From NCBI RefSeq assembly GCF_037094685.1, contig NZ_CP146614.1:5766001-5830000 (forward strand): DNA of 64,000 nucleotides, written 5' to 3'. Shown piece by piece: positions 54,801 through 63,310 of the stretch. This DNA comes from Massilia sp. METH4. GTDB lineage: Bacteria; Pseudomonadota; Gammaproteobacteria; Burkholderiales; Burkholderiaceae_D. The position numbers and the translations under genes are program-made. Numbering within the stretch: position 1 is the stretch's first letter; every line of letters begins with the position of its first letter. Below the pieces are notes generated by a model that did not search any database, was not told the origin of the DNA, and worked only from the letters and a program-made list of their open reading frames with translations.

Positions 54801-56223
54801 ATGGACGCGCGACGCGGCACTGGTGGAACTGCTGCGCGCGCGCCTGTCCGGCTTCGGCCCGCAGGGCGTGGCCGCCATCGCCGCGGCGCTCGCCCTGCCG
54901 GAAAGCACGGTCACTATCGCGCTTGCCGGGCTGGAAAGCGAAGGCTATGTGATGCGCGGCCGCTTCACGCCCGGCGCGGCCGGCGAGGAGTGGTGCGAAA
55001 GGCACCTGCTGGCGCGCATCCATCGCTACACGATCCGCCACCTGCGGCGCGAGATCGAACCGGTGGAGCGGCAGGATTTCATGCGCTTCCTGTTCGACTG
55101 GCAGCACGTCGGCGAGGAGACGCGGCTGCAAGGCGCCGACGCGCTGCCGCAGGCGCTGGCGCAGCTGGAAGGGTACGAGGCGGCAGCGGGCGCCTGGGAA
55201 AGCGACCTGCTTGCCGCACGGGTGAAGGAATACTCGATGCTGTGGCTCGACGAGCTGTGCCGGTCCGGCCGCATCGTGTGGACGCGCGTGGGCGCGCCGC
55301 CCAGCGCCAGCGGCGGCCCGGTGCGCGCCACCCCGCTGGTGCTGCTGCCGCGCCGGCAGCTCGCGCTGTGGCATGCGCTGCCGGCGGTGGCCAGCGAGGT
55401 GCAGGTCTCATCGCGCGGCGCGCGCGTGCTCGATGCCTTGCGCGCCCACGGCGCCATGTTCTTCGACGAGCTGACGATGGAAGCGCGCCTGCTACCGGCC
55501 GAACTGGAAGACACGCTGGGCGAACTGGTGGCCACGGGTCTCGTGAACGCGGACAGCTTCGCCGGCCTGCGCGCCATGCTGGTGCCGGCGAACAAACGCA
55601 ATGCGATGGACCGCAAGCGCCGCCGCGGCGCCGGGCCGACGATGGAGGAAGCGGGCCGCTGGGCGCTGGTGCGCCGCGCCGAGGGCGTGACCATCACCGA
55701 GCGCGGCGCGCAGGCGCCCGGCGATATCGCCAGCCGTCCCGCGTCCGGCCGCCGGCCGCGCACCGAACCGGCCACCCTGGAACACATCGCCATGACCTTG
55801 CTGCGCCGCTACGGCGTGATGTTCTGGCACCTGCTGGAGCGGGAAGCGGCCTGGATGCCCGCCTGGCGCGAGCTGCTGCCGGTCTATCACCGCCTGGAGG
55901 CGCGCGGCGAGATCCGCGGCGGGCGCTTCGTGGCTGGCCTGTCGGGCGAACAGTTCGCACTGCCCGAGGCGATCCCGCTCCTGCGCGACATGCGCAAGCG
56001 GCCGCACGACGCCAGCCTGGTACTGGTCTCCGGCGTCGATCCGCTGAACCTCGCCGGCATCGTGCTGCCGGGCGAAAAAGTGCCCGCGCTGGCCGGCAAC
56101 CGCTTGCTGTACCGCGACGGAACGCCGGTGGCCACGCTCGTCGCGGGCAAGTTCCACTACCTCGGTTCGCCCGCGCCGGCCGAGCGCGAGGCGCTGCACG
56201 CGCGGCTGGTGGCGCCGCGCTAG
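51868..56223 (+). CDS. lhr: Lhr-type large superfamily 2 DNA/RNA helicase
   Basis: A 1451-residue protein, close to full-length E. coli Lhr (about 1540). Two RecA domains carry Walker A APTGSGKT (47-54), motif Ia [16 protein letters not shown] (173-176), LSATQK, and motif [16 protein letters not shown]. The winged-helix and beta-barrel Lhr core (DUF4145/DEAD_assoc) and a long C-terminal extension follow. Lhr is an ATP-dependent 3'-to-5' helicase implicated in DNA repair. The TAG stop is the last part of a CTAG that borders a palindromic element. Co-directional with the transporter gene. Confidence 0.93.
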
Positions 56224-56384
56224 TGTGGTGAAACAGAGAGTCGTTGACTAATAAATTTGACGAAATCGTCTCAAGACAAGACGGAAATGCGCGGTAAGGC
56301 CGGGGCCTTTCCGTGCATTTTCAACGCAGTGTTGAGGCGATTTTCGTCGAATTTATTCAACGAATTTCTGATTCAGCACACTAG
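56220..56384. mobile_element. Palindromic MITE-like element bounded by CTAG
   Basis: 165 bp between two CTAG copies (56220-56223 and 56381-56384). The inner ends are related inverted repeats: TGTGGTGAAACAGAG on the left and, on the opposite strand, TGTGCTGAATCAGAA on the right. Similarity continues inward through GTCGTTGA/TTCGTTGA, AATAAATTTGACGAAA/AATAAATTCGACGAAA and the centre AAGGCCGGGGCCTT, so nearly the whole element is one imperfect hairpin with no coding capacity. The left CTAG supplies the TAG of lhr, the right CTAG the TAG of the convergent kinase gene. A non-autonomous transposon (4-bp CTAG or 2-bp TA duplication) fits. Confidence 0.72.
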
Positions 56385-62354: not shown

Positions 62355-63146
62355 ATGAGCACCCCCACGTTCTGGCGCGACGCCGCCCTGCCCTTCCTCG
62401 AAGCCCGTTCGATCGCCGACGGCCGCGGCGTGTGCTACGCGAAGCACTCGCACGAAACCTTCTCGATCGGGTCCATCACCGGCGGCGCCAGCGAGTACCT
62501 GAACGGCCGCGCGCGCGAGCACGTGCGGGCCGGCGCCGTGGTGCTGATGAACCCCGGCGACGTTCATGCCTGCAACCCGCTGGGCGAGGAACCGTGGTCG
62601 TACCGCATGTTCCACGTGGATAGCGGCTGGCTGGCCGGCGTCCAGGGCGAGGGGGGCGAGATGCGGCCCTATGTGCCGGTCGCCAGCCGCGCGCCCGGCC
62701 TGTTCGCGCGGCTCGAAGCGCTGTACGCCACCTGCGTCGACCCGGCAGCCGATGCGCTGCAAAAGCAGGTTGCCGCCATCGACTTCTTCACCTTCATGCA
62801 CGATACGCTGCAGCCGGCATCCGCTGCCACGCTGCCGGACCACCAGGTGCGCCGCGCGGCCGAATACCTGCGCGACAACCTCCCCGCCGCCGTGAAGCTC
62901 GACGAGCTGTGCGCCGCCTGCGGCCTGTCGCCGTCGTACCTGATCCGCGCCTTCAAGGCCCGCTACGGCATGACGCCGCACGCCTGGCTCGTCAACTGCC
63001 GCATCCAGTACTGCCGCGAACTGCTGCGCCGCGGCCGGGCCATCGCCGACGTGGCGCAGGCGGCCGGCTTCGCCGACCAGGCGCACCTGCAACGCGCCTT
63101 CAAGCGGCACGTGGCCGCCACGCCGGGCCAGTACCGCAAGACCTAG
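62355..63146 (+). CDS. AraC-family transcriptional regulator with cupin sensor
   Basis: 263 residues. An N-terminal cupin (AraC_binding) domain includes YAKHSHETFSIGSITGGASE and VVLMNPGDVHACNPLGEEPW. The C-terminal AraC DNA-binding domain has VKLDELCAACGLSPSYLIRA and IADVAQAAGFADQAHLQRAF, ending TPGQYRKT. Genes of this subtype frequently sit beside LysE-type exporters, and the convergent neighbour here is one. The stop codon TAG is part of a CTAG that borders the palindromic element at 63143-63310. Confidence 0.9.
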   Translation: MSTPTFWRDAALPFLEARSIADGRGVCYAKHSHETFSIGSITGGASEYLNGRAREHVRAGAVVLMNPGDVHACNPLGEEPWSYRMFHVDSGWLAGVQGEGGEMRPYVPVASRAPGLFARLEALYATCVDPAADALQKQVAAIDFFTFMHDTLQPASAATLPDHQVRRAAEYLRDNLPAAVKLDELCAACGLSPSYLIRAFKARYGMTPHAWLVNCRIQYCRELLRRGRAIADVAQAAGFADQAHLQRAFKRHVAATPGQYRKT

Positions 63147-63310
63147 GGAAGCACTGATTTATTCATGGCGGCGATCTTGGCCCCGAAAAACGTGCCCAGC
63201 TGCGGCACAAAAGGCCCGCCATACCCCGGTATGACGAGCCTTTTGCGTCTTGCTGGACTCGTTTTTCAGGACCAATCTCATCCACCAGCAATAAATCAGT
63301 GCTTCCCTAG
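63143..63310. mobile_element. Palindromic MITE-like element bounded by CTAG, perfect 17-bp terminal inverted repeats
   Basis: 168 bp including a CTAG at each end (63143-63146, 63307-63310). Inside them GGAAGCACTGATTTATT (63147-63163) is repeated exactly in inverted orientation (63290-63306). The two 79-bp arms align along their whole length (GAAAAACG, CCAG, CAAAAGG and CATACC recur in register) around a 2-bp centre, CATACC-CC-GGTATG. No coding capacity. The GGAAG terminus and CTAG duplication resemble IS5-group elements (target YTAR); a TA duplication of IS630/mariner type inside CTAG is the alternative. Each CTAG carries the TAG stop of the adjacent convergent gene. Confidence 0.8.

Follow-up and report, generated by a model that had tools for sequence, protein, structure and literature searches.

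Insertion sequences (ISs) of the IS5 type have the target consensus Py-T-A-Pu, of which CTAG is the commonest form according to the accessible text of one report (PMC5493358), and an IS5-like miniature inverted-repeat transposable element (MITE) that duplicates CTAG or YTAA is on record (PMC3189936, likewise in its accessible part). For the IS481 family, the accessible pages describe a 6-bp NCTAGN duplication beside TGT...ACA ends (PMC6794481, PMC2516522). Four-base overlaps of convergent genes such as CTAG are already known (PMC2174442), and a large survey finds positions between convergent genes over-represented for a number of IS families, IS481 and IS630 among them; IS5 is not named in the accessible part of that survey (PMC9208149). 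Here we describe two palindromic elements, A and B, in a 64-kb window of the Massilia sp. METH4 genome (the whole stretch of DNA that was analysed; contig NZ_CP146614.1, positions 5,766,001 to 5,830,000). Each element lies between a pair of convergent genes, and all four genes end with a TAG inside the nearer flanking CTAG. We consider it likely that both are MITEs which choose CTAG, that insertion at a TAG stop is neutral for the protein and that copies at such sites survive, giving the excess of copies at stop codons that is observed in the genus.

Geometry of the two junctions and copies in the genus

The features at the two junctions are, in coordinates of the window:

51868..56223, plus strand: Lhr-type DEAD/DEAH helicase gene, from Pfam domains
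56220..56223, no strand: left CTAG of A; TAG at 56221-56223 is the stop of the Lhr-type helicase gene
56224..56380, no strand: element A, imperfect palindrome without transposase gene, 157 bp, ends TGTGGTGA...TCAGCACA
56381..56384, no strand: right CTAG of A; CTA at 56381-56383 is the minus-strand TAG stop of the hybrid histidine kinase gene
56381..59104, minus strand: PAS/histidine kinase/receiver gene, from Pfam domains
62355..63146, plus strand: AraC-type regulator gene, from Pfam domains
63143..63146, no strand: left CTAG of B; TAG at 63144-63146 is the stop of the AraC-type gene
63147..63306, no strand: element B, imperfect palindrome without transposase gene, 160 bp, IS5-group ends GGAAGCACTGATTTATT
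63307..63310, no strand: right CTAG of B; CTA at 63307-63309 is the minus-strand TAG stop of the LysE-type gene
63307..63900, minus strand: LysE-type translocator gene, from Pfam domains

This double-stop geometry is confirmed as real and beyond chance. The original prediction had noted it as shared by the two elements, and the exact CTAG positions, the four TAG stops and the multi-copy nature of both elements bear this out. In the predicted uninterrupted junction the two stop codons share 2 bp (TA) and the genes overlap by 4 bp, the arrangement that had been proposed for convergent TAG stops within CTAG. The functional element A probably includes the adjoining G (56223) and C (56381). Folded end to end with their CTAGs, A reaches -93.7 kcal/mol (z -14.7) and B -91.8 kcal/mol (z -12.7). 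The arms of B were recovered by a repeat search; the imperfect arms of A are absent from the listing of that search.

The genome of the window (G000) is a single contig of 6.88 Mb; other G numbers denote the congeners searched and L numbers denote loci. DNA searches of G000 gave 13 near-full copies and one fragment of A, and 17 copies of B with both ends, plus fragments. Genus-wide, in 74 genomes including G000, A was found in 9 and B in 13. Both ends could be located in 84 of the 98 candidate loci examined (30 A and 54 B), and 30 of these 84 copies are in G000. An end is missing in the 14 loci left out (L018, L114, L119, L030, L038, L041, L042, L043, L130, L147, L159, L160, L164 and L166), and repeat retrievals (L014-L017, L019-L021, L117, L141, L142 and L168) were not counted. 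The 84 omit at least two more copies, a complete B (L233) and a 48-bp A (L238). The copy numbers are lower bounds, because only the best candidates of each genome were scored. Except for a few pairs, the flanks of the 84 copies are mutually unrelated, thus nearly all copies are independent insertions.

The neighbouring L009 and L023 were counted as two copies. In this pair (G000:C1:3267599-3267933) B and A adjoin with one CTAG common to both. Directly before B, at its left edge, is a short stretch that looks coding, ends with TAG and is uncalled by the gene finder. Mini forms of about 25-56 bp, barely more than two fused ends, are found at L238 (G000:C1:436093-436148), L040, L134 and L230, and all four have the TAG stop of a gene at an edge. 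The ends of A are mainly of two types, TGTGG and TGTCC, and in most copies the two ends match in type.

Copies at TAG stop codons

A codon-pair gene finder was trained on 1.264 Mb of sequence, made up of the window and 60 systematic 20-kb stretches (61 in all), and the same gene model was applied to the copies, congeners included, and to the background. TAG accounts for 159 of the 1059 stops in the sampled genome. The background initially held 228 CTAGs, of which 7 element flanks were removed; 63 of the remaining 221 lie in genes and 158 lie outside coding interiors or at stops. Among these 158 element-free CTAGs, 35 hold the TAG of one gene and none holds two TAGs.

A TAG stop is found exactly at an edge of 36 of the 84 copies, compared with 35 of the 158 CTAGs (one-sided Fisher p = 0.0007). 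Seven of the 84 have TAG at both edges (L001, L012, L106, L022, L124, L134 and L135) compared with none of the 158 (p = 0.0005), so that double stops are commoner than at other CTAGs outside coding interiors, as had been anticipated. All 14 genes at these seven double stops carry Pfam domains. For G000 only, the counts are 14/30 at one edge at least and 3/30 at both edges (p = 0.007 and 0.004). The enrichment is nearly unchanged over three gene-calling thresholds, with equal limits for copies and background.

The reading frames of the neighbouring genes point in the same direction. Of the 61 gene ends that reach an element, 49 share the TAG frame and 7 and 5 fall in the other two, where random truncation would give one third (p = 6e-14), and TAG stands exactly at the element edge in 43. 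For the state before insertion, TAG is the codon reconstructed at 19 of 20 A edges; at L010 a reconstructed TAA was turned into TAG. Furthermore, genes whose 3' ends lie within 100 nt of a copy stop with TAG in 48 of 75 cases, against the 159/1059 of the sampled genome. Convergent junctions have TAG on both sides in 8/32 cases with a copy versus 9/161 without (p = 0.002), which agrees with the stop usage expected in the original prediction. A common CTAG is present at 7/32 junctions with a copy versus 0/161 without, a comparison that is partly built in because copies prefer CTAG.

The 36 stop sites comprise 21 convergent and 15 tandem ones. Copies avoid divergent positions: divergent and convergent ones hold 8 and 32 copies, respectively, while background CTAGs are divided 45 versus 41 (p = 0.0009; 47 versus 41 after cleaning). 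TAG stops in general are the safe sites, and the convergent double stop is their rarest form. Convergent double stops, the landing sites originally put forward, are enriched over other CTAGs but form a minority (7/84), and tandem stops are also used. The targeting of CTAG by the elements and the rebuilding of TAG on each side by insertion are supported.

Identity of the elements and related sites

Element B has the terminal inverted repeats of the IS5 group (GGAAG..., type GGAASCRCTGATTTATT). Five of its flank pairs are identical without being CTAG (TTAA twice, CTTG, CCAG twice); all five are direct and none is inverted only, TTAA being its own inverse. Two full-length elements of about 1.2 kb, L231 in G003 and L234 in G011, have B-like ends, CTAG flanks and a DDE_Tnp_1 transposase (PF01609, E 5e-30 and 4e-32, respectively). 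Relatives of that transposase in named genomes show identical xTAx flanks in 35 of the 63 analysed loci. Because of the direct flank repeats, the matching ends and the full-length DDE_Tnp_1 relatives in two congeners, B is, on sequence grounds, a MITE of the IS5 group with a 4-bp YTAR-type target duplication.

For A, the inner flank base is G on the left in 30/30 copies and C on the right in 29/30, and the outermost bases vary. Its odd symmetrical flank pairs are inverted in four cases (TTAG/CTAA twice, GTAG/CTAC and CCAG/CTGG) and direct in none; no clean empty site was seen. The inverted odd flanks together with the fixed G and C fit a duplication of TA inside CTAG by an element which starts with G and ends with C. 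From these flanks we infer that A duplicates TA inside CTAG in the manner of IS630. TA in CTAG also stands in the title of a 1991 study by Tenzen and Ohtsubo, to which PMC6811581 refers. A search for an IS630 (DDE_3, PF13358) partner in 6 genomes gave one match, in G038, without A-like ends. Searches with the end pattern of A in 9 and in 392 genomes gave no end pair around a gene-sized interior among the matches listed. A is termed IS630-like in behaviour only, since no transposase for it was found in these searches.

Two other views of A were rejected. As a relative of IS481, with which it shares TGT...ACA ends and CTAG, it should show the 6-bp NCTAGN direct duplication, which is absent; at L001 the bases outside the CTAGs are G and G, where a 6-bp repeat would need A and T. 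The other view takes the tetramer as wholly A's own, with no target duplication. It fails on a comparison of two loci, L011 in G000 and L165 in G014, where A and B, respectively, occupy the identical tetramer near the 3' end of an orthologous gene (kinase-like, its type judged by eye from the sequence): the frame of the orthologue is kept only if one tetramer is host DNA, an argument that is a reading of the printed flanks.

Related sites without an element were also compared. Two congeners lack the element at the window's B junction (L204 and L205) and keep a single CTAG there as the stop of the LysE gene, and their AraC frame runs past it; other relatives of this junction differ more. The relatives of the L022 junction are rearranged, with gene overlaps of 44-59 bp or gaps of 10-72 bp; in one of them, L202, the TAG stops of the two genes lie in separate CTAGs, 10 bp from each other, and no element is present. 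For the A junction of the window (L001), only G014 among the matches listed has both genes adjacent, with TGA/TGA stops 66 bp apart and no element; one search for relatives of L001 took only the plus-strand genes of each locus and missed loci in the opposite orientation. The pre-insertion double stop is what we infer from the duplication rule.

The window contains three further palindromic repeats (4821-4946, 18972-19125 and 28395-28517) with ACCGGTGTCNNACACC-like cores. They resemble repetitive extragenic palindromic elements and are unrelated to A and B.

Proposed survival of copies, its alternatives and known systems

In the explanation that we prefer, A and B would be non-autonomous MITEs moved in trans by transposases which choose CTAG. 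The mover of B would be an IS5-group enzyme, as the matching ends, the YTAR-type 4-bp duplication and the full-length relatives show, and that of A an IS630-like enzyme duplicating TA inside CTAG, as its flanks suggest. CTAG is rare in G000, and about one fifth of those outside coding interiors hold a TAG stop. Insertion there would rebuild the gene-side TAG, for B by the copying of CTAG and for A by the duplicated TA plus the element's own G, and the protein would therefore remain unchanged; at a CTAG with two convergent stops, both would be rebuilt. Copies at stop sites would then persist and copies in genes or in divergent promoter regions would be lost, so that stops, and the rare double stops among them, become over-represented. 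The core of this mechanism was already contained in the original prediction and stands; its scope was too narrow, as any TAG stop can serve, and the separation of transcripts that it added is unsupported.

Arithmetic of the target alone could give a similar picture. CTAG is strongly avoided in the window (16 present versus 66 expected from dinucleotide shuffles), and if it is avoided in genes, landings would fall where CTAG exists, without any effect of survival; the 35/158 CTAGs outside coding interiors that are already at a stop agree with this. However, about 22 percent of copies at stops would then be expected and 43 percent (36/84) are seen, and the double stops are 7/84 against 0/158. 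Furthermore, the background does contain CTAGs within genes (63/221), while no gene is called across any copy; one split by an insertion would escape such calling anyway. We regard target arithmetic as an unlikely sufficient cause.

A bias at the moment of insertion, with the transposase or target capture aiming at gene ends (terminator DNA, stalled complexes), would suit the B copies with near-perfect ends, which are already at stops in 13/25 cases, and the choice of one identical tetramer by two different elements. Against it, full-length IS5 relatives with identical xTAx duplications have a TAG stop at an edge in only 1/35, and in 1/14 when limited to CTAG flanks and a G+C fraction >= 0.52. 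For this comparison 63 of 80 loci were analysed, 17 being left out as partial matches, near a contig end or from distant taxa, and 5 of the 63 gave no ends. In a test that needs no gene calls, a TAG frame open over 150 codons or more occurs at 28/68 MITE edges with intact flanks versus 2/28 IS5 edges (p = 0.001) and 56/310 background edges (p = 9e-5). Aiming thus seems quite improbable. Survival rather than aiming is what this contrast with the full-length relatives would imply.

Several observations weigh against survival at stops or limit it. No TAG is present at either edge in 48 of the 84 copies, and with only 7 double stops the expectation that most copies would sit at convergent double stops did not hold. 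A count of copies with intact CTAG flanks (23/34) is inflated, because selection keeps the TAG-side flanks, and was set aside; the 84-copy counts are free of that condition, and decayed old stop sites may escape them. The exact pre-insertion double stop was seen in no relative examined. At L011 and L165 the insertions replaced the last codons with element-borne codons and TGA, changing the protein, therefore not every tolerated site is neutral. The IS5 loci compared belong to other species, to which the gene model of G000 was applied, and the next frame is also open at 20/68 MITE edges, because long open frames are common at this G+C content. Finally, 13/25 of the B copies whose ends show no more than one mismatch are at stops, against 6/29 of those with more mismatches, while A shows no such trend (4/7, 5/10 and 8/13 at stops). 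Slow purging alone does not predict the pattern of B, so loss must act early or site preference contributes. The IS5 contrast favours survival over aiming, not decisively; harmful insertions would be lost early, and site choice may contribute.

The hairpins themselves could be the reason for retention, if copies serve as terminators that separate the transcripts of convergent genes, the role originally proposed for them. Compensatory changes on both sides were found in 23/61 pairs of A (23 copies) and 23/62 pairs of B (39 copies), and none of 500 shuffles scored as high; sliding the partners by 1-3 columns gave far fewer such changes in both alignments. The pairing structure of B is the fold of one member, L126, since the consensus fold of its alignment is poor. 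This covariation is only suggestive, because kinship among the copies can satisfy the shuffle test even where no selection acts, and the hairpins could be kept up for transposition, by template-switch correction or for a role as RNA. Each element has few terminator-like sites, confined to one strand (two in A, plus strand only; one in B, minus strand only), with no strong two-way terminator, and folding energy is alike in stop and non-stop copies and in convergent and other copies. A known RNA family was also considered and rejected: an Rfam search gave one sub-threshold match, outside both elements, and no known family in A or B. With few one-sided terminators, no Rfam match and a stability independent of context, transcript separation is unsupported, and we hold retention as terminators to be very doubtful. 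As an observation on both elements, the compensatory changes extend to central hairpin parts that transposition should not need.

It is highly improbable that the edge TAG is a by-product of elements supplying a stop to genes they truncate: the genes at L011 and L165 do end in TGA inside the element and the L010 stop seems to have passed from TAA to TAG, but truncation would spread gene ends equally over the frames (49/61 are in the TAG frame), and the reconstructed codons at A edges are TAG in 19/20.

If survival at stops is the cause, it gives a testable rule, in which the target word of a transposase and the genetic code jointly decide where its copies can survive. In one genus this rule is followed by two unrelated MITE families, beside a single published case in the IS481 family. 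If general, the rule would help to explain the persistence of CTAG-preferring elements where CTAG is rare, the abundance of TAG beside them and which insertion sites are tolerated. A wider generalization, in which CTAG-targeting transposons (IS5-, IS630- and IS481-like) form a general stop-codon-neutral class, A making TAG even from TAA, convergent stops are a genome-wide safe harbour and hairpins later become insulators, strikes us as speculative and rather unlikely.

The original prediction knew of no earlier description. The restoration of a target gene's stop by CTAG is published (PMC6794481, in its accessible part). For the convergent double-stop rule we recognised no statement in the accessible open-access literature, so its absence in print remains unproven. 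The published case is TnRErm46/ISRe46 of the IS481 family, which also targets CTAG, and there some target genes take their TAG stop from CTAG, as for parB. It differs from A and B in its NCTAGN duplication, its size of 6.9 kb and its one-sidedness, and the accessible text gives no convergent double stop or statistics (PMC6794481). In the accessible account of the Leifsonia ISs of the IS481 family, the host NCTAGN site also provides a stop codon, but that of the transposase, so the transposon's own gene and not a host gene uses the target TAG (PMC2516522). Element A resembles IS630-type elements in that its flanks fit a TA duplicated within CTAG, and a CTAG target is reported for IS630 in the accessible text (PMC6811581); it differs in that no IS630 transposase bearing its ends was found in the genomes searched. 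Element B is closest to the IS5-group MITEs. Like MITEPsy1, with its GGAAGG ends and its duplication of CTAG or YTAA (PMC3189936, accessible part), it has ends starting with GGAAG and a 4-bp CTAG/YTAR duplication. It is distinguished from such MITEs, for which the accessible descriptions do not mention an enrichment at TAG stops (PMC3189936, PMC5493358), as a full palindrome of 160 bp with covarying arms.

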